Counted from the stretch's first letter, positions 49,246-64,000 are shown. The stretch: DNA of 64,000 nucleotides from Archangium violaceum (GCF_016887565.1 NZ_CP069396.1:8042001-8106000), one strand, 5' to 3'. Notes: generated by a model from the sequence alone, not told the origin. Made by a program: numbers and translations.

Positions 49246-49281
49246 GCTGTCGTGGCTCCCATGGAGCCTGAGGGTGGAACA

Positions 49282-50730
49282 ATGCGCACTGACTCGTCGA
49301 GGGCCCGGTGGGCAGGCCTGCTGCTCGCCATGGTCCTACTGTCCACCGGCTGTACGTCGCTGACGCCACCGCCCGGCCAGAGGGTGAACCTGCGCTACAT
49401 GCCGCGTGAGATCGCGGAGCCTACGTTGGCCAAAAGGCCGACTGTGATGGCGGCGGGCTCTGACAATGCAGCGGGGACCGAGTGGCAGAACGCCCTCGCG
49501 GCCCACCTGGCGTTTCGCGGTGCCGTTGGCGACGTGTCCGGCTCCACCCGCCGGCTCTCCGGCGAGCTCTCCAGACTCAAGACCAGCAACCCGGGCATCG
49601 CTGGGGGAGGCGGCGGCATCTTCCTCCGCTACGTCGAGCATGGTGAACGCCAGCTTCGGTGGATTGAAGCAGAACTCGTTGCCGCCACCCGACTGGCCAA
49701 CGCGGCCTCGGAGGTGGATGACCTTGACATGCAGCTCGCCCTGCTGCGCCTCGCGGGCCCGCGACTCGAGGCAGCGATGCTCGGCTCCCTCCTGCTCGCC
49801 GGATGGCTCGACTTCCTCAACCTCGTCGATGTCGTACTCAAGCAGGGCTTCAACCGCGTGGAGACGCTGTTCGCGAACATGGACCGCTTGCAGAAGATGC
49901 TCGAGCCCTCCATGACGGCACTCTCCTCACTCGATCCAGGACAAATGGAGGCTGCGGCGAAAGACCTCCCCTCGCTGATGGGCCAGCTTTCCGGCGAGTT
50001 CAATTCGACTTGTGAGACCGTGCGCGTGGCGATGAAGCGCGGCGAGCAGGTGATGCTGTTGGCGCAGCTCGTCGAGACGGTCGCCATGGTGTCGACGCTG
50101 AAGATGCCACTGCCAAGGCTGCCACCGAGCGCTCCCGCCACGCTCGGGGTGAGTCTCATGGTGGGTTCCAACGGCGTGATGACGGGCACGCGGATGGTCG
50201 TCTCCGCCGAATGGGTGGAGATGATGCGCCGGCTGGTGCGGGCGAGCGTCATCTCCCTTCCCGTCGTTAGCGCCACTGTCCGGATTCAGGCTGGCCAGGT
50301 GATGATGGCGCAGTCTCACGACGAGCTGCCACGGGGCGTGCGCGACGCGCTCGGCGACGGGCCCGAGGTGCAGGGCATGCGGGTGACGAACAGAGCTGGT
50401 GCCGGCATGACCGAGCCACCGAGACACCACGTCCTGCCGCGAGAGTTCCGCGAGTGGTTCGAGCAGCGCGGCTTCACCGGCGAAATGAGCATCGACCAGT
50501 TCTGCGTCCGAATGGAGCAGGCAAAGCACGAGGCGATCCATGGAGGTGGCAATTGGCGCTTGGGCCGCACATGGCCCGGTGAATGGAACCGGATGCTCAT
50601 GAAGACCCTGCGCGACGCCGAGGTCGATGCTGGCCGGATGTTGACGCGGAACGAAATCCTGAGGCTCGTCGCGAAGAACATGAGGGACTATAGAATCCCG
50701 GTGAACTTCACCCCTTGGATGGGAAGATGA
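49282..50730 (+). CDS. SitA/DUF2380-like lipoprotein, candidate polymorphic toxin
   Basis: This 482-residue lipoprotein starts at the ATG at 49282, with lipobox LSTGC and Cys24. Residues 30-370 are a long helical body with several hydrophobic patches. The last ~100 residues differ: PRHHVLPREFREWFEQRGF, then AKHEAIHGGGNWRLGRTWPG with further His, Trp and Asn, a pattern recalling compact HNH/AHH-type nuclease toxins and the DUF2380 family of myxobacterial lipoproteins. In Myxococcus, SitA toxins are lipoproteins with variable C-termini that pass between cells by TraA/TraB outer-membrane exchange and are neutralised by a linked SitI. The match to that class is an inference. It is 36 bases downstream of the Rieske gene. 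Confidence 0.6.
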   Translation: MRTDSSRARWAGLLLAMVLLSTGCTSLTPPPGQRVNLRYMPREIAEPTLAKRPTVMAAGSDNAAGTEWQNALAAHLAFRGAVGDVSGSTRRLSGELSRLKTSNPGIAGGGGGIFLRYVEHGERQLRWIEAELVAATRLANAASEVDDLDMQLALLRLAGPRLEAAMLGSLLLAGWLDFLNLVDVVLKQGFNRVETLFANMDRLQKMLEPSMTALSSLDPGQMEAAAKDLPSLMGQLSGEFNSTCETVRVAMKRGEQVMLLAQLVETVAMVSTLKMPLPRLPPSAPATLGVSLMVGSNGVMTGTRMVVSAEWVEMMRRLVRASVISLPVVSATVRIQAGQVMMAQSHDELPRGVRDALGDGPEVQGMRVTNRAGAGMTEPPRHHVLPREFREWFEQRGFTGEMSIDQFCVRMEQAKHEAIHGGGNWRLGRTWPGEWNRMLMKTLRDAEVDAGRMLTRNEILRLVAKNMRDYRIPVNFTPWMGR

Positions 50731-51197
50731 GCGAGGACCGTTCCTGGGAGGGCAACTGGAAGGTCCGCCTGTATGAGCGGGTCCGCGAGCGGGGCTTCGA
50801 TTCGCTCACCGCTTTCGCCGAGGCGCGTCCCGCCGTCCCGCTCTATCTGCTGGCCGAGGAGCTGGGCGAGGAGGACGTCGCCGCGGTGCAGGTGTTCAGC
50901 GCATTGCTCGCCGAGGCGGAGCGGCGCAAGCAAGTCACTCGCCTGGTGCGCGATGTTCTCGTACGTGAGTTCGCCGAAGGACTCCCCGGCGGCTGGCCGG
51001 CCATGATGGACGACGCCAACCGCTTCGAGGTCGCCATGGCGCTTGGCCGCTGGTCCGCTTATACCCCAGAGACCCATCAGAAGCGCGTCGAGCAGGCCAG
51101 GGCAACGCTCCGCACCACACCGCCTCCGCCCGGTTGGCGCCCTCTTGACCCCGATGACGAACTGCTGCGGACGCTCCTACCCGACGAAGAAGCCTGA
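50727..51197 (+). CDS. Candidate immunity protein for the adjacent toxin
   Basis: This 156-residue acidic, soluble protein starts at the ATG at 50727 (MSEDRSWEGNWKVRLYERV), overlapping the stop of the lipoprotein toxin gene by four bases. No signal peptide is present. Nothing in the sequence matches a family I can name. The tight coupling, small size, acidity and position right after a candidate toxin fit a SitI-type immunity protein that would protect the producer. A second accessory role in delivery is an alternative. Confidence 0.5.
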   Translation: MSEDRSWEGNWKVRLYERVRERGFDSLTAFAEARPAVPLYLLAEELGEEDVAAVQVFSALLAEAERRKQVTRLVRDVLVREFAEGLPGGWPAMMDDANRFEVAMALGRWSAYTPETHQKRVEQARATLRTTPPPPGWRPLDPDDELLRTLLPDEEA

Positions 51198-51319
51198 ACT
51201 TCACCCGCCAAGTCCATCGCCACGCCGTCATTTCCCAAGAAATGTCACAAAGAATGACCCGGGTCGTCTTCCGGGGTGCGAACGGCGGAACCCGCTCCAC
51301 CCACAAGGAAGAGGTTGCA

Positions 51320-51925
51320 ATGGCTGACCTGGTCATGAACGCGTCCGATACCCTCAACACCGTCAACAACGTCGCCTACAAGGTCGAGCTGGCGCTCTAC
51401 AAGCTCTACAAGGCGGTCACCGGCGCTGGCTACAAGAAGCTGATGGACGGCTTCAAGGACCCCCTCAAGTCCATGCTGACCAAGGTCCAGGACGTCCTGA
51501 AGACGGTCCTGACCAAGGTCCAGGAGGTCATCGAGCCGTTCCTGGACAAGGACGTCCTGACGATGTTCAAGGAGGTCCTCGGCGCGGGCAGGGATCTGGT
51601 CAACTCGACGCTCGACCTGCTGCCCGCCGCCGTGCAGAACGTCGTCGAGACCAGCCGGCGCTTCCTCAACGTGATCGTCGACTTCGTGAGCATCGGCATC
51701 GATCACATCGCGGCCATCGTGGACCTGCTCATGAATGTCGGCCTCGCGCTCGCCGGTCAGCCCCCGACCCTCAAGCCGATCACCCTCGAGATGGTGAAGA
51801 AGACGGAGGTCCTGCTGCTGCCGGAGCCGATCACCGTCGACGCCAAGGCCCTCCCCTCGGGCTCCAACACGACCCCGGGCTCCAACACGACCCCGGGTTC
51901 CAACACGACCCCGGCCAAGAGCTGA
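51320..51925 (+). CDS. Amphipathic helical protein with GSNTTP repeat tail
   Basis: This 201-residue protein starts at the ATG at 51320 behind AAGGAAGAGG. It is strongly helical with repeating amphipathic pieces (SMLTKVQDVLKTVLTKVQEVIEP) and several Ile/Val/Leu-rich segments near residues 95-150 (LLPAAVQNVVET, NVIVDFVSIGIDHIAAIVDLL). The last 25 residues hold three identical GSNTTP hexapeptides. It could be a structural or inner-tube protein of the following tail operon, a membrane-active effector, or unrelated. The 155-base gap to the sheath gene has a hairpin, so it may be separately regulated. Confidence 0.6.
   Translation: MADLVMNASDTLNTVNNVAYKVELALYKLYKAVTGAGYKKLMDGFKDPLKSMLTKVQDVLKTVLTKVQEVIEPFLDKDVLTMFKEVLGAGRDLVNSTLDLLPAAVQNVVETSRRFLNVIVDFVSIGIDHIAAIVDLLMNVGLALAGQPPTLKPITLEMVKKTEVLLLPEPITVDAKALPSGSNTTPGSNTTPGSNTTPAKS
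51860..51913 (+). repeat. Three tandem 18-bp units encoding GSNTTP
   Basis: GGCTCCAACACGACCCCG occurs at 51860, 51878 and 51896 (the last with one change, C to T). It encodes GSNTTP three times at the C-terminus of the protein at 51320-51925. The near-identity suggests recent duplication. Confidence 0.9.
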
Positions 51926-52077: not shown

Positions 52078-53508
52078 ATGGCCAGTGGCCTCATCATTCC
52101 TGGAGTCCAGGTAACCGTCGTCAAGGAAGTCCTTCCCCAGCAACTCGCGCCGTCCGGAGTGCTGGGCCTCATCGGGTTCACGGAGGAGAACCCCGGCAAG
52201 GTGGTGCGCGCGAGCAACTGGTCGCGCTTCGTGGGAGTGCTGGGCCGCGCGAGCGCCTACAGCCTGCCCGAGGCGAAGCAGGCGCTCGACAACGGCGTCT
52301 CCGAGCTGGTCGTCTCGCCGCTTCCCGCCAGCGCCGGGGCCACCGCGAAGGTGGTCATCCCGGCGGACGCCACCAAGGGCGCGAGCCCGGCGGAACCGGC
52401 CAAGGACGCGCCCAAGGACACGCCCAAGGGCAAGGACGCCAAGGCTGGCGCCGGCATCACCCTCCTGGCGCGCGCCCCGGGGCCCTGGGCCAACGGCATC
52501 GGCATCAAGATCGAGTACCGCAACAACCTCGACCAGAGCATCTCGTTCGACCTGCAGGTCCTGGGCGAGAGCAACGGCAAGGAAGTCGTCCTCGAGGTGC
52601 ACCGCAACCTCACCCTGGAGTCGCTGACCGCGACGCTGAAGGCGGGCTCCGCCTACGTGAAGGTGGACGAGTCGAAGGCGATCGGCTGGCCCGCCGCGGA
52701 GGTGTACACGCTCGCGGGAGGCAAGGACGCGACCGCCGATGACTATGCCGCCGCGCTCCGCCGCCTCCAGGACGAGCCCGACGTGGACATGGTCCTCGCC
52801 GCCATCCAGGACTTCTCGGATCGGGCGAAGGTGACGCGCATCTACGGCGACGTCATCAGCCACTGCAACAACCTGAGCGACGACTGCAAGGGCCGCCTCG
52901 GCTTCGGCCAGGTGCCGGACGCGGGCACCATGGAGGAGTACGTGCAGCTCGCCAGCAACCTGGTGAGCGACCGGTTCGTGCTGGTGGCGCCCAACGGCGT
53001 GGCGGGCGCGGTGGCCGGCCTCGTGGGCAACCTCCCCTACTTCTACTCGCCCACCTTCAAGCGCATCTCCGGCGCGGGCGAGCTGCCGCCCATCCCGGTG
53101 GATGACCAGAAGACCCTGCTCAAGGGCAACGTGGTCCCCGTGGTGCTCGAGCGCGGCCGCGGCACCATCGTGCTGCGCGGGCTCACCACGGATGGCGACC
53201 AGATCAACGTGCGCCGCGTGGCCGACCGGGCCGTGCGCACCCTGAAGATGATCGGCAACCTCTTCATCGGCCAGCTCAACACCGCGGACGGGCGCAGCGC
53301 GCTCAAGCAGAAGCTGACCGAGGCCATGCTCCAGATGGAGAAGGACGGAGCCATCGTCCCCTCCACGGATGGGAAGGATCCCGCCTTCAAGGTGGAGGTC
53401 TATTCCTCTCAGGAGGACTTCGCGCTGGGCATCGTCAGGGTGAACCTGGCCGTGCGGCCCGTGCGAGCCATTGACTACGTCTACGCGACCATCACGGTCC
53501 AGGTCTGA
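52078..53508 (+). CDS. Contractile tail sheath protein
   Basis: This 476-residue phage-tail sheath protein forms the contractile outer tube. It begins MASGLIIPGVQVTVVKEVLPQQ, continues with VLGLIGFTEENPGKV and has an Ala/Lys/Asp/Pro-rich insert about residues 95-125. Its C-terminal part has DFALGIVRVNLAVRPVRAIDYVYATITV, the usual core of sheath proteins that joins neighbours by strands. It is related to the XkdK/gpFI-type sheath. A single sheath gene is visible, unlike the two or three of many extracellular injection systems. The start follows the leader hairpin; the tube gene begins 15 bases later. Confidence 0.85.
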   Translation: MASGLIIPGVQVTVVKEVLPQQLAPSGVLGLIGFTEENPGKVVRASNWSRFVGVLGRASAYSLPEAKQALDNGVSELVVSPLPASAGATAKVVIPADATKGASPAEPAKDAPKDTPKGKDAKAGAGITLLARAPGPWANGIGIKIEYRNNLDQSISFDLQVLGESNGKEVVLEVHRNLTLESLTATLKAGSAYVKVDESKAIGWPAAEVYTLAGGKDATADDYAAALRRLQDEPDVDMVLAAIQDFSDRAKVTRIYGDVISHCNNLSDDCKGRLGFGQVPDAGTMEEYVQLASNLVSDRFVLVAPNGVAGAVAGLVGNLPYFYSPTFKRISGAGELPPIPVDDQKTLLKGNVVPVVLERGRGTIVLRGLTTDGDQINVRRVADRAVRTLKMIGNLFIGQLNTADGRSALKQKLTEAMLQMEKDGAIVPSTDGKDPAFKVEVYSSQEDFALGIVRVNLAVRPVRAIDYVYATITVQV

Positions 53509-53523
53509 TGAGGAAACACCCAG

Positions 53524-53913
53524 ATGCCAACGGTATTCTCCGCCAATCGCAGCAGCATCCTCGTCGACGGTGAGGCCGTCGAGGGACTCCAGTCGCTCGT
53601 CTTCCGCGTCGTCACCGAGCGCGAGGACATCCGGGCCATCGGCTCCAACGAGCGGGTCGAGGTCATCTTCGGCCTGCGCACCGTGCAGGGCGAGCTGGTG
53701 ATCCGCTCCGCCAGCGTCAAGCTCGACACGCTGTTGCAGAACCGCGCGAAGTTCCAGCTCGTCGCGAGCCTCAAGCGCACCGAGGGCAACGACGAGACGC
53801 GCACGGTGTCGTTCGACGACTGCTTCGTGGAGGGCAAGTCCTTCCGCCTGGACGCGCACGGCAGCGCGGCCACCAGCTACGCGTTCACCGCCACGCGGGT
53901 GCGCGAGGAATAG
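53524..53913 (+). CDS. Tail tube protein (XkdM-like)
   Basis: This 129-residue beta-rich protein occupies the slot right after the sheath, normally that of the inner tube. The pattern SSILVDGEAVEGLQSLVFRV, then VIRSASVKLDTLLQ and TVSFDDCFVEGKSFRLD, resembles the XkdM-type tube proteins of PBSX-like tails. It is on the short side for that family. The start ATG at 53524 is 15 bases after the sheath stop. The tube call is based on position and fold character. Confidence 0.7.
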   Translation: MPTVFSANRSSILVDGEAVEGLQSLVFRVVTEREDIRAIGSNERVEVIFGLRTVQGELVIRSASVKLDTLLQNRAKFQLVASLKRTEGNDETRTVSFDDCFVEGKSFRLDAHGSAATSYAFTATRVREE

Positions 53914-53916
53914 TCC

Positions 53917-54789
53917 ATGGGAGCGGAGCCCGCGCACATGGAGGCCACGGAGGAGGCCGGCACCCCGGCCGCCTCCCGCATCGAGGTGGACGGCAGGTGT
54001 TTCTCCGTCCACTTCGAGGGCCCGGACGAACACGTGGTGCGGGTGGATACGGGCTCGGGGGAGCGCGTCCAACTGCGCCGCTGGGGGTTCGACGAGCACC
54101 TGCGGGCGCTCGACCGGCATGCCTGGGCCGATGAGCGCGGGCTCCGCTTCGATCACGAAGGTTTCTCGCGCGACGTGCTGCGCGACTCCGGTGTGCCGGA
54201 ACCGCTCCACGAGGAGCTGGCACCCCTGGCCCTGTGGTGGGCCACCGGTGGAGACCGGGAACCAACCTCTGGCGTGGGACCTGACGGATGGCTGCGCATC
54301 GGAGCCATCCGCGCCCGGCTCCGGCCGTGGACATTCTCGGAGCGTTCGAGGGCCATGGGCCAGAGCCTCACCGCGCGTCCCGATGGCTCCCGGGAGCTCG
54401 GGCTCGAGCGCTATCTGCGAGCGATGCTCGCCGCGTCCGTCGTGGCGTTCGAGCCGGCGGGGGTGGAGCTGTCGATGCTGGACGGAGCCACCACGGCCGC
54501 GCTGCTCGACGCGGTCGTCGCGCTCAACACGGCTGGAGAGCGCGACGAGGACAAGAAGATGAGGGCCTCCGATGCCGGGGGCCAGGCGCTGGCGCGAATG
54601 ACGCTGCTCCTGTGCCGGACACTCGGGTGGACGCCCTCGCAGGTGTGGGAGGCACCGGCGGCGGAGATCGACCGGCTGCTCTCGATTCTGGCTGTGACGG
54701 AGGCATCGGCTCCGTCACCGGCGGCGCCTCGGACCCCGGGGCTCGCTGATTACCCCGATGCGGTGGTGATCCAGGTGGAGGCAGGGTGA
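53917..54789 (+). CDS. Tail-assembly chaperone-like protein
   Basis: This 290-residue protein lies in the position of tail-assembly chaperones, between the tube and the tape-measure slot. It has an N-terminal beta part (RIEVDGRCFSVHFEGPDEHVV), a middle AMLAASVVAFEPAGVELSML, and a final ARMTLLLCRTLGWTPSQVWEAPAAEIDR that fits the short helical chaperone domain of XkdN-like proteins. It is longer than a typical chaperone, so the N-terminal half may be an added domain. No frameshift product is evident, unlike in many phages. It overlaps the next gene by one base. Confidence 0.6.
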   Translation: MGAEPAHMEATEEAGTPAASRIEVDGRCFSVHFEGPDEHVVRVDTGSGERVQLRRWGFDEHLRALDRHAWADERGLRFDHEGFSRDVLRDSGVPEPLHEELAPLALWWATGGDREPTSGVGPDGWLRIGAIRARLRPWTFSERSRAMGQSLTARPDGSRELGLERYLRAMLAASVVAFEPAGVELSMLDGATTAALLDAVVALNTAGERDEDKKMRASDAGGQALARMTLLLCRTLGWTPSQVWEAPAAEIDRLLSILAVTEASAPSPAAPRTPGLADYPDAVVIQVEAG

Positions 54790-56378
54790 TGCGCGCGAAC
54801 ACCACGACACTGGGAATCGTCTCATTCCTCTCCCGCCCGGCATTCCGGGTGATGGAAGACATCGCGCGGCAACTGGGAACCCGGCTTCCCGAGGAGCCCT
54901 CCGGCACCAGCACCGAAGGCACTCAGGAGTTGCCTGCTTCCGAGCAGCAGGTGAGCGCGCGAACGGAGCCTGGCTCGTCGCCCGCCGCCACCTCGCGTGC
55001 CGGGACGGCGGAGGCCACGCAGACCCTGTCCCCATCACATTCCCTTGTCGGCATGGAGACCGTCAGCAGATCCTCATCCGAGCCCGCCACCTCGCGTGCC
55101 GAGATCCGGAGCCTCGATCCACTCCCGGCTGGCTCCGAGGCCCCTTCCATCCAGGACGCAATCACGGAAGCTGGAACACGCGCGCCTGTTACCTCGCGTC
55201 CCCTGTCCGCTCCTCGTGCGGAGGTCCGGAGCAGCGACCCCATGGCGCGGACAGGCGCCGTCACTCCGGGTGCGCAGGAGCGCGACAAGCGCATCGTTCG
55301 GCTCCTGCCTCGTACCGCACCAGGTGCGGAAGCCCCAACTTCGAGCACCTCGCGCCCCTTCGTGCCCCTCGAGGACACGACCCATTCCTCCACCTCGAGC
55401 CAGCCCCCCGGCATTCAAGCGAAGGCATCGGTTCCGTCCACCGCGCCCTCCCCTGCCTGGGCCGAAACTTCGTCATCGCCTTCGCCCTCCATCGTCCGTG
55501 CCGAAATGCTCCCGGCGTCGCCGGCCATCGCTCGCGCCGAAGCTCCGCCATCGCTTTCGCATTCCGTCGCTCGCGCCGAGACACACCCGGCTTCTCCTTC
55601 CGTGGCCCGTGCAGAAGCCCCGTCATCGCTTTCGCCCTCCGTCGCCCGCGCTGAAGTGCCACCGGCATCCGCATCCGTGGCTCGAACTGAAGCGCTGTCC
55701 CCTCTCCCGAGCTCGGCTGGAGAGAGCGGGTCTCGGAAGCAGGCTGCTCCGTCGCCCGCACAGCGCGCGGATGTGCGGAGCACGCCAGGCCCGCGCGTCG
55801 TCCGTATCCTCCCTCGCGCCGAGTCATCCACCGAGCCCCCCGCCCGCGCTTCTTCGCGGCAGGACGTCGACACCGGGCAGGAACTCCGACCCACCTCCTC
55901 CATCGAGCCCACCGCCGCCCGCGCCGCCACGTCTGGCTCCGGGCCGGAGTCGGGCGGAAGCGCGAGCCCCAGGACCCGTCTCACGTTCCTCCCGACTCCC
56001 GAGTCCCCCGCATCCCCGGCCCTCGAGTCCCCTGCTTCCCGAGCGCCCGTGACCTCGCCGCTCCCCACCTCCGAAGGCATCAGCGGCCCTCGGCCCGGCG
56101 CAGTCCCCGCCGCTCTCGCCGAGCAGGTCACGCGAGGTCTGTCGCCCGTCTGGGAGCAGGCCCACCAGCTCACGCACACCGCGCTCACCGTGGAGCGGGC
56201 CTCGACTCCCGCGAGCACCGTGACGGCTCCTCCGAGCGGCGCCGTGCGCAACACGTTCAACGTCAACGTCCACCTGGATCCCTCCGCACCCCAGGAGGGC
56301 CTGGACCGGCGCACGTTGGAGGACGCGCTGGTCGACATCCTTCGCGAGACGGCACGCCGTCATGGGTTGGAGGTCTGA
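54789..56378 (+). CDS. Long disordered Ser/Pro/Ala-rich protein in the tape-measure position
   Basis: This 529-residue protein starts at the ATG at 54789 (TGATG overlap with the previous gene); GTG at 54786 is the alternative. Residues about 30-470 are almost entirely Ser, Pro, Ala, Thr, Arg and Glu, with repeated xRAE cores. The ordered ends are MRANTTTLGIVSFLSRPAFRV and, at the C-terminus, NTFNVNVHLDPSAP.GLDRRTLEDALVDIL. Its place after the chaperone-like gene is where a tail tape-measure gene normally sits, but classical tape measures are helical. The protein may set tail length, act as a scaffold, or be a disordered linker. The function is unproven. Confidence 0.6.
   Translation: MRANTTTLGIVSFLSRPAFRVMEDIARQLGTRLPEEPSGTSTEGTQELPASEQQVSARTEPGSSPAATSRAGTAEATQTLSPSHSLVGMETVSRSSSEPATSRAEIRSLDPLPAGSEAPSIQDAITEAGTRAPVTSRPLSAPRAEVRSSDPMARTGAVTPGAQERDKRIVRLLPRTAPGAEAPTSSTSRPFVPLEDTTHSSTSSQPPGIQAKASVPSTAPSPAWAETSSSPSPSIVRAEMLPASPAIARAEAPPSLSHSVARAETHPASPSVARAEAPSSLSPSVARAEVPPASASVARTEALSPLPSSAGESGSRKQAAPSPAQRADVRSTPGPRVVRILPRAESSTEPPARASSRQDVDTGQELRPTSSIEPTAARAATSGSGPESGGSASPRTRLTFLPTPESPASPALESPASRAPVTSPLPTSEGISGPRPGAVPAALAEQVTRGLSPVWEQAHQLTHTALTVERASTPASTVTAPPSGAVRNTFNVNVHLDPSAPQEGLDRRTLEDALVDILRETARRHGLEV
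55484..55700 (+). repeat. Alternating 12/13-residue RAE repeats
   Basis: Within the disordered protein the cores VRAE, ARAE, ARAE, ARAE, ARAE and ARTE follow each other at 12, 13, 12, 13 and 12 residues, a higher-order period of 25 residues (75 bases). The repeats are diverged in third positions, so the expansion is old. Confidence 0.8.
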
Positions 56379-56381
56379 GCC

Positions 56382-57410
56382 ATGGCTGGAATCGCCTACG
56401 AAGTGACGATCGGCTCCTTCCAGGCCTCGAGCCAGGCCGGCCAGGGCAACGGGTACGTCCGCTCCATCGTCAGCGAGCTGACCATGGATGGTGTCGGTGG
56501 ACGCTGCTACCTGGAGCTGGTGGCCTCGGACTCGGAGCCACCCGCGCCCGGGGACGAGACAACGGTCTCCCTCGACGACGGAAACGGCGCCGTCACGGTC
56601 TTCACCGGCACGGTGCTGGAGACGAAGGCTTCGCCGGACACGACCCTCATCGTGGGCACCGATGCGCTGGCGAAGCTCGCCCGGATCGACGTGAGCGGCT
56701 CCTACGAGCAGACGTCGGCCGGCTCCATCGTCAGCGAGCTGGTCCAGCAGGCCGGAGCCACCGCGGGCACCGTCGAGGACGGTCCCACGTTCACAAGCTA
56801 CGTGCTCCACCGCGGACCGAGGGCGCTCCGCCACATCCACCGTCTGGCCGAGCAGTGCGGCTTCGACGTGTACACGGATGGAGAGGGCAAGGTGCACTTC
56901 GCCGCGCCGAAGCAGGGCGGGCCGGACCACACCTTCGTCTATCGGGAGCAGGTCCTGAAGATCGAGCTCCTGCGCACTCCGCTGGCCTACGACGGCGTGG
57001 AGGTCTGGGGCGAGGGCGCCGCGAGCACCCAGGGCTCCGAGAAGTCCCACTGGCTCGTCGCCGATCTCTCGTCGGTCAGCGGCAAGGCCGCCGCCGATGC
57101 GGACTTCAGCGTGCAATCCGGCAGCGAGGGTGAGCGCTCGCGCGAGGTGCGGGACGGCGCGGTGCGGACCGGCGACGACGCGACCGCCCAGGCCCAGGCG
57201 CGGATGACGGCGCTGGCCTCACGCGCCCTGCGTGGCTTCGCCGTGGTGCTCGGCGCCCCGGCCGTGAAGCCGGGGGACCTCGTGAAGTTCGATGACATCC
57301 CCGCCACGCACGCGGTGCATGCGCTGGCCTCCGACAAGGTGCTCCGCGTGCGCGCGGTGCGGCACACGCTGAATGCCCGGTCGGGCTTCGTCACCCGGAT
57401 GGAGTTCTGA
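56382..57410 (+). CDS. Tail hub protein (gpD-like)
   Basis: This 342-residue protein resembles the phage late-control gpD hub that links the tube to the spike. It has an N-terminal beta region (YEVTIGSFQASSQAG), then SGSYEQTSAGSIVSELVQQAG, FTSYVLHRGPRALRHIHRLAEQCGFDVYTDGEGKVHFAAP, and a C-terminal FDDIPATHAVHALASDKVLRVRAVRHTLNARSG. The helix with LAEQCGFDVY is typical of gpD/VgrG hub cores. The start ATG lies 4 bases after the previous stop. It precedes the DNA_circ_N-like gene, whereas PBSX has the two in the opposite order. Confidence 0.75.
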   Translation: MAGIAYEVTIGSFQASSQAGQGNGYVRSIVSELTMDGVGGRCYLELVASDSEPPAPGDETTVSLDDGNGAVTVFTGTVLETKASPDTTLIVGTDALAKLARIDVSGSYEQTSAGSIVSELVQQAGATAGTVEDGPTFTSYVLHRGPRALRHIHRLAEQCGFDVYTDGEGKVHFAAPKQGGPDHTFVYREQVLKIELLRTPLAYDGVEVWGEGAASTQGSEKSHWLVADLSSVSGKAAADADFSVQSGSEGERSREVRDGAVRTGDDATAQAQARMTALASRALRGFAVVLGAPAVKPGDLVKFDDIPATHAVHALASDKVLRVRAVRHTLNARSGFVTRMEF

Positions 57411-57411
57411 G

Positions 57412-58302
57412 ATGCCCGTACGCATTGGAAAGATCGAGCTCATCGGTCTCACCAACATCTACACCGAGGACACCCGCAACCTGGTGCAGCAGCGCGTGCC
57501 GGGGCAGTCGGGCAACATCTTCCAGGACCTCGGCCGTGAGCCCGTCACCGTCGTCATGGAGGGCATCCTCCTGGGCGAGGACACGCAGGGTGCCCTCGAG
57601 GAGCTGCGCCAGGCGCAGATGAAGGCCACGCCGATGGCGTTCGCCGCGGACGCCATCGCCGGTGCCGATCTGACGGACGTGCTCATCGCCGACTTCCAGG
57701 TGAAGCAGCTCGCCGGCCACGAGAGCCGCTACAGCTTCTTCCTGAAGGTGAAGGAGTACGTGGAGCCGCCGGCCTCCGAGGACGCGGGCGCCGCCGCCGT
57801 GGACGAGGCCGCCGCCGAGGATGCCGCCGCCTGGGCCCAGGGCTCCACCGACGCCGCCGCCGTGCTGCAGAACCCCGACTCCCTCATGGAGGCCGTCGAC
57901 AGCAACCCCGAGGTGCTCGCCCACCTGAGCCCGGACGAGCTCGGCTCCGTCGTCACCCAGACCCAGGACAAGCTGAGCGGGGAGAACTTCGGCAACCTCG
58001 TCGGCGCGCTCGGCAAGACCAATCCCGGGGCGGTCGGTGGCTTCCTCGACTCGCTGAAGAACTCCGGCAGCCTGGGCGGCTTCATCCAGAAGCTCGCCGC
58101 CGAGGGTGTCAACCTCATGCAGAAGCTCAAGGGCATCGACCTGGGCGCGGCGCTCAGCCTCGTCAAGGCGATCGCCGGCGCGGGCGACTTCCTCGCGAAG
58201 CTGAAGCGCGTGGTCGACGAGGCCACGGCCCTGGGCGATGCGGTGGGCAACTTCGATCCGCTCGGGCCCTTCAAGGAGCTCGATATGGGGGCCAACCCGT
58301 GA
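57412..58302 (+). CDS. DNA_circ_N-like baseplate/tail protein with helical C-terminus
   Basis: This 296-residue protein starts at the ATG at 57412, one base after the hub stop. Residues 1-115 resemble the short beta domain named after the Mu gpN-type/DNA-circulation N-terminus (PVRIGKIELIGLTNIY, EPVTVVMEGILLGED, HESRYSFFLKVKEYVEP), which in tails connects tube and baseplate. Residues 120-296 are helical and Ala/Gly/Leu-rich (GALGKTNPGAVGGFLDSLKNSG, AALSLVKAIAGAGDFLAKLK). It overlaps the next gene by four bases. The family name is from pattern only. Confidence 0.6.
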   Translation: MPVRIGKIELIGLTNIYTEDTRNLVQQRVPGQSGNIFQDLGREPVTVVMEGILLGEDTQGALEELRQAQMKATPMAFAADAIAGADLTDVLIADFQVKQLAGHESRYSFFLKVKEYVEPPASEDAGAAAVDEAAAEDAAAWAQGSTDAAAVLQNPDSLMEAVDSNPEVLAHLSPDELGSVVTQTQDKLSGENFGNLVGALGKTNPGAVGGFLDSLKNSGSLGGFIQKLAAEGVNLMQKLKGIDLGAALSLVKAIAGAGDFLAKLKRVVDEATALGDAVGNFDPLGPFKELDMGANP

Positions 58303-58844
58303 GCACCACCACGGCGGACATCATCGACGGCATCGCCCGGCTCATCACCGCGCTCAAGGAGCTGCTCGAGACCGATACGGTCGAGGCGCTGGTGGACCTG
58401 GTGAAGAAGCTCGGCATCGGCCAGCCGGTGAAGGTCGGGCTCCAGGCGCTCGCCCGGGTGCTCGACATCCTCGTCGGGTGGATCGAGAAGCTGGAGCAGG
58501 TGGCGCGCATCCCAGCGTTCCTCGAAACCCTGGATCCAGCCTTCGAGCAGGTGAAGGAGCTGGCGAGCAGCTCGGGTCAGGAGATGCGGGACATGGGGCT
58601 CGGCTCACTGGCGCCCGTGGTCGACGCATCCCGGGCGGCGATCGATCTCGCGGACAAGATCCGGCGCGGTGCCGAGATCATCCTGAAGGGTTACCTGCCC
58701 GAGCAGTCCATCGTGCACCTGCGGGAGTCCGTCCAGGGCCTCGCCAACAGGCTTCGGCAGATGCAGCAGAAGCTCGATGCCCCGGCGGCGGCCCCCGCCG
58801 CGACCGCGAACAAGTCCCTCCTTCCCGCCGGAGCCATTCCATGA
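58299..58844 (+). CDS. Helical protein in the tail operon
   Basis: This 181-residue protein has a GTG start (GTGA overlap with the previous gene). It is nearly all amphipathic helix: IIDGIARLITALKELLET, ALARVLDILVGWIEKLEQ, LADKIRRGAEIILKGYLPEQS, LANRLRQMQQKLD, then an Ala/Pro tail. I do not recognise a family. It lies between the gpN-type gene and the spike gene and overlaps the latter by four bases, so it is probably an integral baseplate or assembly component. Confidence 0.6.
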   Translation: MSTTTADIIDGIARLITALKELLETDTVEALVDLVKKLGIGQPVKVGLQALARVLDILVGWIEKLEQVARIPAFLETLDPAFEQVKELASSSGQEMRDMGLGSLAPVVDASRAAIDLADKIRRGAEIILKGYLPEQSIVHLRESVQGLANRLRQMQQKLDAPAAAPAATANKSLLPAGAIP

Positions 58845-59473
58845 GCGACCTCGTGACCATCATCCGTGCCCTCATCCGCGACGAGCTCGCGAGCCTGCGC
58901 CTCGGCGACATCGGCGTGGTGACCAGCTCCTTCCCCCATGCGGACGGGGACGAGAACAACCTCGAGTGCAACGTGAAGCTGCGCGAGAGCGACGTGGAGC
59001 TGCGCAAGGTGCCCATCGTCACCCCGCACATCGGGATGGTGAGCGCGCCGCGTACGGGAGAGCTGGTCCTCATCTCCTACGTGGCAGGGGATCCCAACCG
59101 CCCCATCGTGGTGGGCCGGCTCTACTCGGACGAGGTCAACCCGCCCGTCCACGAGGCGGACGAGTGGCGCGTCGTGGCGCCTCCGGGGGGCACCACCTCC
59201 ATCGCCATCGACAAGGACCAGTCCATCGTCTTCACCGCCGGGGAGAACGTGGTGACGATCAAGCAGGACGACGTCATCACCATCCAGGGCAAGGCGGACC
59301 TGACCATCCAGGTGGACGGCAACGTCGAGCTCAAGTGCCAGGACTGCAAGATCGACGCGTCCGGCAACATCGACCTGGGCAGCAGTGGCAGTGGCGTCAT
59401 CACCGAGAAGAGCCACAAGTGCTACTTCACCGGCGAGGCGCTCAAGGGCTCGCAGAGCGTGAAGGCGAAGTGA
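58841..59473 (+). CDS. Baseplate spike protein (gpV-like)
   Basis: This 210-residue spike starts at the ATG at 58841. An OB-fold (VTSSFPHADGDENNLECNVKLR; GELVLISYVAGDPNRPIVVGRLYSDE) is followed by a beta-helix of short strands (AGENVVTIKQDDVITIQGKADLTIQVDGN; CQDCKIDASGNIDLGSSGSG), the structure of P2 gpV/Mu gp45 trimeric spikes. The C-terminal Cys pairs CQDC and KC may bind a metal at the tip, as in other spikes. The next protein probably caps it. It overlaps the previous gene by four bases. Confidence 0.8.
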   Translation: MSDLVTIIRALIRDELASLRLGDIGVVTSSFPHADGDENNLECNVKLRESDVELRKVPIVTPHIGMVSAPRTGELVLISYVAGDPNRPIVVGRLYSDEVNPPVHEADEWRVVAPPGGTTSIAIDKDQSIVFTAGENVVTIKQDDVITIQGKADLTIQVDGNVELKCQDCKIDASGNIDLGSSGSGVITEKSHKCYFTGEALKGSQSVKAK

Positions 59474-59476
59474 GCC

Positions 59477-60127
59477 ATGCCCGCACCGAGCGCATCCGAG
59501 ATCGAGAACCTCGCCAAGGGCGCCATGCAGTCGGCGAGCCTGCGGGGCGAGAACGCCCCGGACCTGGCGGCCGCGCTGGGACAGGCCTGCGGACAGGCCT
59601 TCACCCTGTTCGTGTCCCTGGCCATGGTGGCTCCCGGCATCCCCGCGGCGGCGCCCCCTCCGGCCGGCTCCGGCAGCACCGCGGGGCCGGGAACGCTGCT
59701 GCCCCCGCCCGCGGGCGGACCCGGCGCGTCGATGATCGAGCCCATCGCCATGGGCATGCTCGCCTCGAACAAGATTCGAGGTGAGAAGCAGAGCGCGCTG
59801 GCCAAGGCCATCGCCCAGTCCATCGAGCAGGCGCTCACCCTCTTCACCACGCAGGTGAAGGTCGCGCCGGGGATGGCCATCGCCGGCTTCACCACCACGG
59901 CTCCGGGCAACCTCATGGGCGCGGCACCCGCCAAACCCATGCTCCAGCCCATCGTCCTGGGCTTCCTCCAATCGGGAGGCATGCGCGGGCAGAACGCCCC
60001 GGACCTGGCCGGAGCCATCGCCGAAACGCTGTCCAACGCGCTCACCCAGATGATGACGCGGCTCAAGGTGACCCCGGGCATTCCGTGCACGCCCGCGGCC
60101 ACCGCCGGGCCCGGGAGGTTGGTGTGA
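59477..60127 (+). CDS. Triplicated-domain protein downstream of the spike
   Basis: This 216-residue protein consists of three tandem, diverged copies of one ~60-residue unit, at about residues 9-74, 87-146 and 156-216. Shared features in order are I-x-x-[IL]-[AV]-x-G, then a short [ML]-x-S, [LIM]RG[EQN], a helix such as ALGQACGQAF / AIAQSIEQAL / AIAETLSNAL, then V[AT]PG[IM] and TA[GP]PG near each end. Units 1 and 3 also share NAPDLA. I know no family for this. Its place right after the trimeric spike and its threefold internal repeat suggest a pseudo-threefold cap or adapter, as with PAAR proteins, which is an inference. Confidence 0.65.
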   Translation: MPAPSASEIENLAKGAMQSASLRGENAPDLAAALGQACGQAFTLFVSLAMVAPGIPAAAPPPAGSGSTAGPGTLLPPPAGGPGASMIEPIAMGMLASNKIRGEKQSALAKAIAQSIEQALTLFTTQVKVAPGMAIAGFTTTAPGNLMGAAPAKPMLQPIVLGFLQSGGMRGQNAPDLAGAIAETLSNALTQMMTRLKVTPGIPCTPAATAGPGRLV

Positions 60128-60537
60128 TGGCGGACGAGCTGAAGACAGACTTGAAGCTGGCCTTCAAGGACACGGGCGAGATCGACCTCGACTGGAGCAC
60201 CGACACCGGGGCGGCCACGGTGAGCGGCAAGGACAACCTCGTCCAGGCCCTGACGATGCGGCTGATCGTCTACCGGGGGCACCTGGAGCAGCTCGGCCAT
60301 GGCCGCTACGGCAGCCGGGTGGCGGACCTCATCGGCGAGCCGTTGGATCGCCAGAACCTCGAGCTGCTGCGCCGCTACGTGCGCCAGGCGCTCAAGGAGG
60401 ACCCGCGCGTCCAGGAGGTGACGTCCCTGCGCGTCAGCGCCCGTCCCGATCTGCCGGGAGCGGTGGATGTGCGGGCCAGCGTCCGGGCCATCACTGGCGA
60501 CGAAGTGGAGCTGGGCCTCGCGCTCGACCTCGGGTGA
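60127..60537 (+). CDS. Baseplate wedge protein W/gp25-like
   Basis: This 136-residue gp25/gpW-type wedge protein has IDLDWSTDTGAATVSGKDNLVQALTMRL and LGHGRYGSRVADLIGEPLDRQN with the conserved 'G-x-x-x-x-x-L-x-R' area, then LRRYVRQALKEDPRVQEV and ELGLALDL at the end. gp25-like proteins join the baseplate to the sheath. The ATG at 60127 overlaps the previous stop by one base (TGATG). Position next to spike and J is standard in P2/Mu-like tails. Confidence 0.85.
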   Translation: MADELKTDLKLAFKDTGEIDLDWSTDTGAATVSGKDNLVQALTMRLIVYRGHLEQLGHGRYGSRVADLIGEPLDRQNLELLRRYVRQALKEDPRVQEVTSLRVSARPDLPGAVDVRASVRAITGDEVELGLALDLG

Positions 60538-60585
60538 GCACGAGCGGCCGTCATTCAATCCAAGACACGACTTCGGGAGAGCACC

Positions 60586-61080
60586 ATGGACCTCAGTGAA
60601 AAGCCAGGCATGAACGGAGTGCTGACCATCGAGCTGCTCGACACGAGCGGAGCGCTGGTGGAGCAGCGCCGGGTCAACAACCTCATCACCACGGCGGGCA
60701 AGCAGTTGCTGGCCAACCTGCTGCTGGGAAAGGTGAACGCGCTGCCCACGCGCTGGGCCATCGCGGTGGGCACGGGGGTGGAGGCCGCGAACATCGCGGA
60801 CACCGCGCTCAAGACCAGGGTGGACGAGGCGGTGGATCCCTCTCCCAAGGTGGAGGTCATCACGCGCGACGGGGCGAGCGTCGTCCGGGCCACGGTGTCC
60901 GCCACCCTGCCCGTCCCCGCCCTGGCCGCCAATGACAAACCCCAGGCCCTCTCCGAGGCGGGGATTCAAATCACCCAGGGCAACGGCACCGCCCCCATCC
61001 TCTTCAACCGCGTGCAGTTCGCGCAGGTCAACCGTGGCGCCAACATGGTCATGAAGATGACCTGGGAGATCACGTTTTGA
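60586..61080 (+). CDS. Uncharacterised tail-operon protein, beta-rich
   Basis: This 164-residue protein starts at the ATG at 60586, 48 bases after the gp25 stop, a larger gap than others in the operon. It is mostly beta-strand: VLTIELLDTSGALVEQRRVNN, AGKQLLANLLLGK with one helix, WAIAVGTGVEAANIADT, VRATVSATLPVPALA, FNRVQFAQVNRGANMVMKM. Similar VNN-then-helix-then-strand patterns occur in phage virion proteins I cannot name. It overlaps the baseplate J gene by four bases. Confidence 0.55.
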   Translation: MDLSEKPGMNGVLTIELLDTSGALVEQRRVNNLITTAGKQLLANLLLGKVNALPTRWAIAVGTGVEAANIADTALKTRVDEAVDPSPKVEVITRDGASVVRATVSATLPVPALAANDKPQALSEAGIQITQGNGTAPILFNRVQFAQVNRGANMVMKMTWEITF

Positions 61081-62621
61081 GCCTCGAATCGCTCGATACC
61101 TCGTTCAGCGCCATCGTCGACCGGCTGCTGTCGAACCTCGGGCCGGGTCTCGACACGAACACCGGGAGCATGGCGCGCACCCTGGCGGAGTCCTACGCGC
61201 GGGAGATGGCCACCTTCTACGTCATGCTCGAGCTCGCCCACCGCTCGGGCTATGTCGACACGGCCGAGGGCGATGCCCTGGACAACGTCGTGGCCGTGCT
61301 GGGCATCGACCGCGCCCGGGCGGGCCGGCTCACCGGAGAGGTGGAGTTCAGCCGCAACTCGCCCGCGCCGGATGACATCGGCATTCCCGCGGGCCGGCTG
61401 GTGACGGGTCTGCCCTCGGACTCCACGCCCCTGCCCCTGTTCGAGACCCTGGAGGACGCCACGCTCCGCCGGGGAGAGACGCGGGTCACCGTCCGGGTGC
61501 AGCAGGTCCAGGACGACGCGAAGGACGCGAAGAAGGCGCCCCCCGTCATCGATCCCGGAAAGCTCATCGTGATGCCCCGGCCCGTGCTGGGCATCGAGGC
61601 CGTCACCAACCGCGCTCCCATCCGTCGCACCGGAGAGGACGAGACGGACGAGAGCTTTCGCGCCCGGGCCCGCACCGCCCTGCGGGATGGAGAGAAGGGC
61701 ACGCTCGAGGCCATCGCCTCCGCCGTGCGCCAGCAGGGCGTCCAGCGGGTGACCGTGCGCGAGCCGCCAGACGCTCCCGCCGGGGTGGTCGACGTGCTGG
61801 TGGGAGATCCCGACTTCAGCCAGGACCCCAGCGGCGTCCAGCGGGTCTGGGACGCCATCCGTGGCTCCAAGGCCGCCGGCATCCAGGTGCGGCTCCAGTA
61901 CGCGCGCACCATCTACTTCCAGGTCGAGCTCCAGATTGAGCCCGCGGACCCGGATGTGGACGAGGCCGCGTTCGACCGACTGCGGCGCGAGCTCCAGCAA
62001 TCCCTCTCCCGCTTCGCCCAGGGTCTGCCCGCGGGCGAGACGGTGCGCCGCCGCAAGCTCGAGGCCGTCCTCTACGCCAACCCGGCCGTCCGCCACATCG
62101 ACGGCCTGCGCGTGCTCACCTACGTCTGGGGTGTCGATCGGGACGATCCCCAGAAGTCCGCGCTCGTCCTCGAGGCGAAGAGCCGGGAGTACGGGCCCGA
62201 TCGTGACTGGCGGCTCGACAACCTCGAGACGGTGGCGATCGACCTGGAGAAGAAGCCACCGCTCATCTCCCGGCTGCGGCCGTCCATCTACCGCATCGAC
62301 CTGGTCGTCTCCGCCCGGCGCGCCGATCCGCGCACGCCCGAGCAGATCCGCCAGGCGCTGCGCGGCGCGGTGGAGCAGTACGCGGCCCGGCTCGCCAAGG
62401 AGGCGCAGGCCACGAACAAGCCCCAGGCGATCCTCTGGGAGGACCTCCAGATGACGCTCAAGCAGCAGGCCGAGGTGGAGCAGCTGCTCTCCGCGGTGGT
62501 CACCCCGGATGACGGCCTCGCCCAGGTGCTGGCGCAGTCCAGCGGGAAGCAGGCGGCCCTCACCCTCGATCAGGGCACGCGCATGGAGCTCGGCGGCGCC
62601 GAGATGGTGGGATTGGGATGA
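61077..62621 (+). CDS. Baseplate J/gp47-family protein
   Basis: This 514-residue baseplate J-like protein has a TTG start at 61077 (TTGA overlap with the previous gene). It has an N-terminal helical part MARTLAESYAREMATFYVMLELA, YVDTAEGDALDNVVAVLGIDR, and then GEVEFSRNSPAPDDIGIPAGRLV. The typical J core, with DESFRARARTALRDGEKGT near residue 190, is followed by a C-terminal region of alternating strands. It forms the baseplate wedge together with gpW. The length is larger than phage P2 J (about 300), nearer to Afp11-type proteins. Confidence 0.82.
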   Translation: MSLESLDTSFSAIVDRLLSNLGPGLDTNTGSMARTLAESYAREMATFYVMLELAHRSGYVDTAEGDALDNVVAVLGIDRARAGRLTGEVEFSRNSPAPDDIGIPAGRLVTGLPSDSTPLPLFETLEDATLRRGETRVTVRVQQVQDDAKDAKKAPPVIDPGKLIVMPRPVLGIEAVTNRAPIRRTGEDETDESFRARARTALRDGEKGTLEAIASAVRQQGVQRVTVREPPDAPAGVVDVLVGDPDFSQDPSGVQRVWDAIRGSKAAGIQVRLQYARTIYFQVELQIEPADPDVDEAAFDRLRRELQQSLSRFAQGLPAGETVRRRKLEAVLYANPAVRHIDGLRVLTYVWGVDRDDPQKSALVLEAKSREYGPDRDWRLDNLETVAIDLEKKPPLISRLRPSIYRIDLVVSARRADPRTPEQIRQALRGAVEQYAARLAKEAQATNKPQAILWEDLQMTLKQQAEVEQLLSAVVTPDDGLAQVLAQSSGKQAALTLDQGTRMELGGAEMVGLG

Positions 62622-64000
62622 GACCGGAACAGCGCGCACGACGGATGGTGGGCTACCTCCCGCCAGTCCTCCAGACGGGCAGGCAGCTCAACCTCTTCTT
62701 CGAGACGCTCGGTCAGGAGCTCGGCCAGATGGAGCTCTGGCTGACGCGCCTCATGCGCTCGCGGTGGTACACGCTCGCGCGGGGCTTCCGCCCGGATGAC
62801 TCGCTCTCGGTCAAGGCGGCGAGCGAGCTGGGCCGGCTGGGCGCGCTCTACGGCCTCGTGCCCCGCCGGGGCGAGAGCGACACCTACTTCCGCCAGCGCA
62901 TCGCCGCGCTCGTGGAGCTGCATCGCACCGGACTGAGCACCGCCCCGTCGCTGCTCGGGCTGGTGTCGCTGGTGTACATGGCCCAGCAGCCCCCGGAGCT
63001 CTCCTGGGAGGGTGAGATCGCCATCGGGACCTTCCAGGTGCCGGAGGCGGATGGCTCGACGCGCGAGATGCGCGTCACCCTCGCCGACAAACCGCTCACG
63101 CCCGCCTCGACCCGGTTCCTCGGCATCGGCGCGGGACAGCAGCTCCTCACGACCAACAACGGCCTGGAGGAGGCCATCCCGGAGATCTGCCTGAAGGCGG
63201 CCGAGGCGGACATCCCCATCCCCCTGCTGCACCACGAGGAGTCCGGGCTCGATGTGATCTTCCTGGGGCTCGTTCCCAAGGGACAGACCCTCACGCTGCG
63301 CGACAAGTACGTCCCCCTGCTCGACGGCCGCCCGGTGAAGGAGCCGGTGATCGTGGCGCATCCCACGCGCTTCTCGGGCAGGGAGGACCAGGGCCCGCGA
63401 GCCCGCTTCAATGCCCCGGACTCCCGCTTCGCCGTGTTCAAGCAGGACAACGAGCTGCCCCCGCTCGTGCCGGGAAGGAATCACTGGAGCTACGAGACGC
63501 TGACGCGCGCGAAGCTCACGTCCTATCTCCGGGGCACGCCGGGCCTGGAGCTGGACAAGGCGCTGGCGCTGATCCCTGAAGGCAAGCCCTCGCCTCGCGC
63601 CGACCTCCAGTTCAACTGGATCGAGCTCGCTCCCGCGACCTTCACGCTGAGCATCCCGGTGGACTACGTGCCACCGCACCTCCAGGTGCCCGGCGAGGAT
63701 GGCACGGTGCCGGGACTGCCCGGCCTGGTCCGGGAGCTCGCGGCCGCGCTGACCTACGGCCGGGCCGCCGGGGTGCGCTGGCGCATCGAGCTCATCCTGC
63801 CGATGCCGGCGGAAGAGGTCTCCCTGGGCGAGAGCCCCGCCCTGATGGAGCTCGCCACGTCCTTCACCGAGGAGGCCCGGGCCACCGACTCCCCCATCGC
63901 CGTCGCCCCCAACCTCATCCTCACGGAGCAGGTCGGGGAGCTCGATGACTCCCGTCTCACCTGGTCCGGATTCTTCGATCACACCCGCTTCAACACCTCG
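62618..64000 (+). CDS. gpI-like baseplate/tail protein (3' end outside window)
   Basis: The first 461 codons of this gene are in the window and the frame is open to the end. The ATG at 62618 overlaps the J stop by four bases. The start ARRMVGYLPPVLQTGRQLNLF and then FRPDDSLSVKAASELGRLGALYGLVPRRGESDTYFRQRIAALVE have the pattern of phage gpI-type wedge proteins, which begin with a positional helix region and bind J. The later part (VTLADKPLTPASTRFLGIG, FSGREDQGPRARFNAPDSRF) is unfamiliar and probably extended, so it may be a fused fibre or second baseplate domain. Confidence 0.7.
   Translation, partial: MRPEQRARRMVGYLPPVLQTGRQLNLFFETLGQELGQMELWLTRLMRSRWYTLARGFRPDDSLSVKAASELGRLGALYGLVPRRGESDTYFRQRIAALVELHRTGLSTAPSLLGLVSLVYMAQQPPELSWEGEIAIGTFQVPEADGSTREMRVTLADKPLTPASTRFLGIGAGQQLLTTNNGLEEAIPEICLKAAEADIPIPLLHHEESGLDVIFLGLVPKGQTLTLRDKYVPLLDGRPVKEPVIVAHPTRFSGREDQGPRARFNAPDSRFAVFKQDNELPPLVPGRNHWSYETLTRAKLTSYLRGTPGLELDKALALIPEGKPSPRADLQFNWIELAPATFTLSIPVDYVPPHLQVPGEDGTVPGLPGLVRELAAALTYGRAAGVRWRIELILPMPAEEVSLGESPALMELATSFTEEARATDSPIAVAPNLILTEQVGELDDSRLTWSGFFDHTRFNTS

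Follow-up and report, generated by a model that had tools for sequence, protein, structure and literature searches.

The 64,000-nucleotide window of Archangium violaceum analyzed here (8,042,001-8,106,000 of a single 13.2-Mb contig) ends within a run of tail genes that in our judgment probably encodes a complete, free-standing contractile tail particle without a head, of the tailocin or contractile injection system (CIS) kind. The block has a set of tail genes in fixed order, with no genes for a head, for lysis or for an AAA+ ATPase. It is under purifying selection and has spread as a unit.

Genes were identified using Pfam, PHROG and NCBIfam profiles, with AlphaFold2 structure predictions for the last two, and a further 40 kb past the end of the window was read (coordinates above 64000 are those of this extension). 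The genes are collected in Table 1. Every named gene between 52078 and 64000 is an open frame on the + strand, successive genes are spaced by −4 to +48 bp, and since their order is fixed across the family loci examined end to end the run is not the result of chance. An earlier reading of the window from sequence alone (the sequence-only reading) had named these tail genes as one coupled run, and the frames, junctions, profile matches and fixed order in the family bear this out. Both limits of the run required correction. It had been begun at 52078, but the gene A3 at 51320 precedes the sheath and is conserved in family loci. The module had been called complete, with the rest lying past 64 kb. 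It is not complete at 64000: genes for the fiber, a small coiled coil, a glycan-binding-type protein and the terminator lie at 64012-68706, where the run stops. The product of 59477-60127 had been called cap-like. It is the three-repeat protein g9 beside the spike, and the real cap or terminator is encoded by the last gene.

Table 1. Genes of the tail block in order, with the evidence for each (aa, amino acids; ext, extension coordinates).
Gene or product	Coordinates	Strand	Evidence
A3, amphipathic helical protein, 201 aa, first gene of block	51320..51925	+	weakly tape-measure-like; tblastn 40-95% in 14 family loci, open reading frame in 2 more
Contractile sheath, 476 aa	52078..53508	+	PHROG tail sheath 1.5e-19; Pfam Phage_sheath_1C E 1.7e-6
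Putative inner tube protein, 129 aa	53524..53913	+	position right after sheath, size, 65-100% conserved
Tail-assembly-chaperone-like, 290 aa	53917..54789	+	flanked by tube and tape-measure-slot genes; PHROG tail assembly chaperone 0.051 (weak)
Tape-measure-slot protein, 530 aa	54786..56378	+	conserved ends, low-complexity middle rich in P/S/T/A/G
Baseplate hub (gpD/gp44/VgrG-N type), 342 aa	56382..57410	+	PHROG hub 8e-10; Phage_GPD 4.3e-5; VgrG_rel 5.5e-11
gpN-like baseplate protein (DNA_circ_N), 296 aa	57412..58302	+	weak: DNA_circ_N 1.8e-3, DUF6046 1.5e-3
g7, small helical baseplate-region protein, 181 aa	58299..58844	+	conserved position
Spike (gpV / gp5 OB domain), 210 aa, conserved Cys/His C-terminal region	58841..59473	+	Phage_base_V 1.1e-5
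g9, three-repeat protein beside spike, 216 aa	59477..60127	+	mean column identity 82%
gp25-type sheath initiator / baseplate wedge, 136 aa	60127..60537	+	PHROG 2.2e-15; Sheath_initiator 1.2e-5
g11, PHROG 5417 family, 164 aa	60586..61080	+	phrog_5417 2.7e-20; tail fiber phrog_4176 1.1e-5
Baseplate J, 514 aa	61077..62621	+	Baseplate_J 1.4e-11; PHROG 1.2e-33
gpI-type baseplate protein	62618..64015 (window ends 64000)	+	PHROG 2.3e-4; 51-96% in 16/17 readable family loci
Fiber	64012-65982 (ext)	+	conserved N-terminus
Small coiled coil, 69 aa	66022-66231 (ext)	+	
Discoidin/CBM-like protein, 553 aa	66271-67932 (ext)	+	AlphaFold2 fold
Tail terminator, 253 aa, last gene	67945-68706 (ext)	+	AlphaFold2 fold

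The putative identities of the tube, the chaperone-like protein and the tape-measure slot are taken from position and conservation, and the tube protein has no significant profile match. The tape-measure slot of the sequence-only reading is occupied, by a protein that composition and disorder scores predict to be disordered and in which conservation is limited to the two ends. Its length varies from 351 to about 610 amino acids in fully read loci. The sheath matched none of the solved sheaths in a sequence search of the PDB, while the spike profile matched chains of VgrG and, weakly, of Pvc8 and Afp8. The protein g9, which has two repeats in some loci, found no relative in PDB and Pfam searches. 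It would be a lineage-specific component, and is a possible tip protein.

The predicted fold of the last gene product is that of a tail terminator. The model is confident (predicted local distance difference test score, pLDDT, of 86) and its top structural matches are the terminators lambda gpU (Z 12.9) and the monocin cap (Z 10.7); the collars of R2-pyocin (Z 10.3) and diffocin (Z 9.6), the Afp cap (Z 8.4) and PVC caps are also matched. From this predicted fold it follows that the block would carry its own cap. The model of the preceding 553-residue protein (pLDDT 83) has a discoidin/CBM32-like domain at residues 53-178 (Z up to 11.3), and residues 297-464 closely resemble a portion of a baseplate protein from phi812 (Z 15.7, root-mean-square deviation 2.5). 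These folds suggest a role in glycan recognition.

In the flanks read to the left and right we recognized no gene for a head, a terminase, an integrase or lysis, and in the block and those flanks no holin or endolysin gene. Profiles for portal, HK97 capsid and TerL gave no match in the whole 13.2-Mb genome, where divergent families could escape them; the same profiles match 3 to 4 of 14 control genomes. The sequence-only reading had seen no terminase, portal, capsid, integrase or lysis gene, and this therefore holds past 64 kb too. It had proposed looking there for a head cluster, and for fibers and an ATPase. The extension holds the fiber, receptor-type and terminator genes, followed by insertion sequence (IS) elements, an array of clustered regularly interspaced short palindromic repeats (CRISPR) and ordinary chromosomal or housekeeping genes, and no head cluster. 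The sequence-only reading had named head and packaging genes directly downstream, in an intact prophage, as what would refute it, and the extension does not refute it. An AAA+ ATPase of the Cis15 kind is not present near the locus; the closest AAA match, at 8114821, is an IstB encoded by an IS element, and the next is ~87 kb away. Neither DUF4157 nor a toxin domain came up in profile searches of the block, and PADLOC detected nothing. Also as had been read, the membrane complex of the type VI secretion system (T6SS) is lacking: there is no TssJLM among the open reading frames of the block and flanks, nor is there a ClpV or a two-part TssBC, the sheath being single and of the Phage_sheath_1 type.

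The surroundings of the block contain some further features. The CRISPR array has 19 repeats (GTGCTCAACGCCTCTCGGCATCACGGCGAGCGGGAC type) at 69924-71239 of the extension (L004:7924-9239), beside the IS elements, and sits in a ~13-kb stretch that is not present in the close relative G004. On the other side, a lipoprotein gene (DUF2380) and a small gene lie at 49246-51223 between the left flank and the block, and are also absent in G004. These genes (A1/A2, 49252-51197) were considered as members of the block and dropped, because they are missing from the orthologous G004 locus, where the flank directly adjoins the block. Four genomes of the same genus that lack the block match the left flank as far as 49222 and differ beyond it, and it is next to this flank that G004 has its block.

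The block is maintained within the family. The sheath is present in 24 of 96 sampled family genomes, relatives including Myxococcus, Corallococcus and Pyxidicoccus, and a search for the spike in 195 genomes of the phylum returned exactly the same 24. We compared 18 family loci, one of which (G016) is cut by a contig end, leaving 17 readable through. The set from sheath to terminator is complete and in the same order in 16 of these 17, the other (G039) being divergent and partly rearranged, with no match to A3. The gpN-like gene is 59-95% identical in the same proportion of readable loci, and 43% in G039. Sheath identity is 60-97% across the family loci, and 49-59% in other phyla. Across five genome pairs dN/dS (the ratio of nonsynonymous to synonymous substitution rates) mostly lies between 0 and 0.4, with high values for the tape-measure-slot protein and the fiber. 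The N-termini of the fibers are kept and the C-termini exchanged between loci; many have a C-terminus of S74 type (S74 chaperone in L040 and L128), and the fiber of the window has a different domain. Nine family loci are flanked (20 kb on each side) by housekeeping genes that differ by clade, so that the block occupies several chromosomal sites. Taken together, the low dN/dS, the fixed gene set, the varied flanks and the G004 junction indicate that the block is a maintained machine under purifying selection that has moved as a unit, with fast-changing fibers.

Two relatives, G068 (L133-L135) and G073 (L136-L137), have a second, divergent headless tail locus. Near the gpN-like gene these sister loci hold an RHS-repeat gene (L134:7355-9586) and a Zn-dependent phospholipase-C-like gene (L137:7577-10423, minus strand), and they also carry helical proteins of 1.1 thousand amino acids. 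The G068 sister locus is surrounded by polyketide/nonribosomal peptide-type genes. Separately, genes that resemble Peptidase C25 (gingipain/caspase-like), some weakly and some clearly, occur near the block in L124 and L126 (Polyangia) and at L072:15003-16436 (G063).

The same block is found well beyond the family. A scan of 84,980 species genomes yielded 35 sheath relatives, including Zoogloea, Chitinolyticbacter, Chitiniphilus, Thiodictyon, Methylumidiphilus and Rhodopila, together with Desulfobacterales, Planctomycetota, Polyangia and two archaeal metagenome-assembled genomes (MAGs). The distant loci have the same gene order through J as far as the sequence examined reaches, and the complete headless block ending in a terminator is also present in Zoogloea, Chitinibacteraceae, Polyangia and Desulfobacterales. 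In all nine distant loci that were extended downstream the terminator is the last gene of the block and no head gene can be seen, and lysis genes are absent after the block in the nine except for a VanY-type gene following one Polyangia locus. In the examined distant bacterial loci and in G039, g7 and the spike are separated by an extra conserved gene whose product has a peptidoglycan-binding domain (L091:16481-17542, L089:16308-17489, L082:17240-19306 and L053:7818-9794, the last of the same family by sequence); the clade of the window lacks this gene. Among 50,697 phage records there is no relative of the sheath, and the tube is likewise unmatched in phage records. Just one of 2.9 million viral contigs has a sheath match (L109, a low-GC 15-kb fragment). 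It has no head gene in the 13.6 kb examined and, while filed as viral, is probably a fragment of an archaeal chromosome. Matches of J and the spike in phages are to haloarchaeal viruses only, at ~30% identity, save one J record of another name. In the J tree most Myxococcaceae are separated from the proteobacterial loci, and G039 falls with the latter on a long branch. Two genera are slightly intermingled, consistent with some transfer. Chromosomal sheaths in archaea have been noted before: a study of sheath evolution lists 'Candidatus Nitrososphaera evergladensis' among them, with no account of the locus in the relevant passages (PMC9230969).

How is this block related to known contractile systems? 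Comparison by hhalign of the family sheath alignment with the single sheaths of phiH and of two extracellular CIS (eCIS) yielded no usable signal, the family alignment being too uniform, and profile scoring was used instead. The family sheath profile gives ~400 bits with archaeal sheaths and does not match those of P2, phiH or the two eCIS-like loci of the same genome. The J profile scores 116 bits with phiH, compared to 16 with one of these eCIS. Together with the J tree, these scores support a lineage of its own among the systems compared. Our preferred reading sets it apart from T6SS as well as from P2-type R-pyocins and Afp/PVC-type eCIS, although T6SS and jumbo-phage sheaths are not on any tree. 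The two additional contractile loci of this genome, L006 (at ~1.94 Mb) and L007 (at ~7.05 Mb), have the look of canonical eCIS. Both have large J proteins; there is a Pvc16_N-like cap in L006, and several sheath- and tube-like genes in L007.

The block shares with Mu, PBSX, P2 and R-pyocins the order of sheath, tube, chaperone, tape measure, hub, spike, gp25, J, I and fiber, and with R-pyocins the lack of a head and the predicted terminator/collar fold. Yet the family sheath profile finds no match in the P2 tail region and the spike scores 14 bits only, and compared with P2/PBSX-type tails the terminator lies at the 3′ end, the tape-measure-slot protein is predicted to be disordered and there is no lysis cassette. 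The relation to PBSX and P2 that had been read from the window thus stands for gene order and not for sequence, as the nearest phage baseplate proteins J and V are those of haloarchaeal myoviruses. Mu and PBSX have the hub and gpN-like genes in the reverse order, and the exchange of these two genes, seen before in the window, holds for the bacterial loci and fails for the archaeal-type L109, where gpN precedes the hub. Canonical eCIS (Afp, PVC, AlgoCIS, Streptomyces CIS) similarly encode a headless contractile particle in one block; the spike weakly matches Pvc8/Afp8 and the terminator fold is as in Afp16-type caps. They differ in the sheath (compared with the two loci of this genome only) and in J, and no AAA+ ATPase or LysM protein was found in the present block. 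The haloarchaeal myoviruses phiH, ChaoS9 and HGTV-1 have a similar order of sheath, tube, tape measure, hub, gp25 and J, but these are full viruses with terminase, portal and capsid, whose similarity is ~30% over part of the protein, and whose sheath is not recognizably similar. The archaeal sheath loci (the Nitrososphaera MAG L108 and L109) are closer, with 36-37% identical sheaths and matching tube and gpN-like proteins. In L109 the hub, spike, gp25 and J match as well, while the three-repeat protein beside the spike is absent.

If the block is a headless particle, it would work as follows. The tube and sheath would polymerize from a baseplate tipped by the spike, with the slot protein spanning the tube and the terminator closing the far end. 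A fiber of trimeric type with swappable tips, and the glycan-binding-type baseplate protein, would bind the target surface, whereupon contraction of the sheath would push tube and spike through the target envelope. We suggest that such particles are made and released and puncture the envelope of another bacterium, and killing could result from puncture itself, in the manner of a tailocin, or from a small cargo. Among these possibilities we favor, with roughly even confidence, a tailocin-like weapon directed at other bacteria. Several observations weigh against this picture. The locus is known here from its genes, and particles from this strain have not been seen. The block has no lysis cassette or export route, and no toxin-like cargo (A3 being a possible candidate). 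No LexA-like site upstream is shared, the matches to the Myxococcus-type motif upstream of A3 being scattered and mismatched. Lastly, the RHS-repeat and phospholipase-C-like genes of the sister loci would favor delivery of effectors over simple puncture.

Effector delivery therefore stays a serious rival, if a less probable one than puncture: a payload of the tube or spike, either A3 or a cargo encoded elsewhere, would damage prey or competitor cells. A3, an amphipathic protein with weak similarity to tape measures, is encoded with the particle at its 5′ end, and effectors related to tape measures are known for Streptomyces CIS (PMC11126660, PMC13277306). A3 is thus a candidate cargo or membrane-active accessory. 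Yet it was not found in the examined loci outside the family, and the block has neither the Cis15-kind ATPase nearby nor a DUF4157 or toxin domain within. That the sequence-only reading left the choice between a tailocin and an extracellular injection particle is well founded, since the sequence is compatible with both. Myxobacteria undergo lytic development, and a particle acting inside or at the envelope of its own producer, in lysis or development, would explain a block without a release cassette; Streptomyces CIS provide precedents (PMC10066040, PMC10020575). We consider this improbable, as the fast-evolving fiber tips and the protein of glycan-binding type suggest that the targets are foreign or variable, and only a quarter of the sampled family genomes have the block.

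Two further explanations would connect the locus with a virus, and both are very unlikely. Gene order and gene kinds are of phage type, as expected of a decaying prophage that recently lost its head half. However, the frames are intact and under purifying selection over a long divergence, several bacterial phyla have the block in this headless form and ending in the same way, and related sheaths are lacking from phage records and confined to L109 among viral contigs. We have therefore rejected a prophage remnant on the dN/dS values, the nine headless distant loci and the genome-wide portal, capsid and TerL negatives. Alternatively the tail might join a capsid encoded elsewhere in the genome, in the way of a satellite or gene-transfer agent, given that the terminator fold is also that of the neck-contacting part in phages. 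This too was rejected, on the genome-wide search that left portal, HK97 capsid and TerL unmatched, although divergent families could escape it.

The headless contractile particle may have been observed before in this species. According to the relevant passage of a review of Myxococcus phages that cites Reichenbach 1967, Archangium violaceum makes structures resembling phage tails or sheaths, 'rhapidosomes', which are increased by mitomycin C (PMC6070905). The locus is therefore a testable candidate for the rhapidosomes, and may account for the tail-like rods seen in myxobacteria since the 1960s. A broader proposal is that the loci in Myxococcota, Pseudomonadota, Desulfobacterota and Planctomycetota, with archaeal sister loci, form an undescribed CIS clade that was domesticated independently of R-pyocins, eCIS and T6SS and is the genetic basis of the rhapidosomes. 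This we advance tentatively, as it is rather unlikely to hold in full. The block is not described in the literature searched on contractile systems in myxobacteria, Zoogloea and Myxococcota; subscription papers and the published eCIS catalogs were outside that search, and the novelty is provisional for this reason.

There is now a defined gene cluster to set against a 60-year-old observation of tail-like rods in myxobacteria. The cluster represents a lineage set off in sheath and baseplate from the sheaths of eCIS, P2/R-pyocins and phages with which it was compared, and surveys relying on Afp-type profiles and the ATPase may have overlooked it. A genome with this block plus two canonical eCIS is a good system in which to study the use of several such machines by a predatory, multicellular bacterium.
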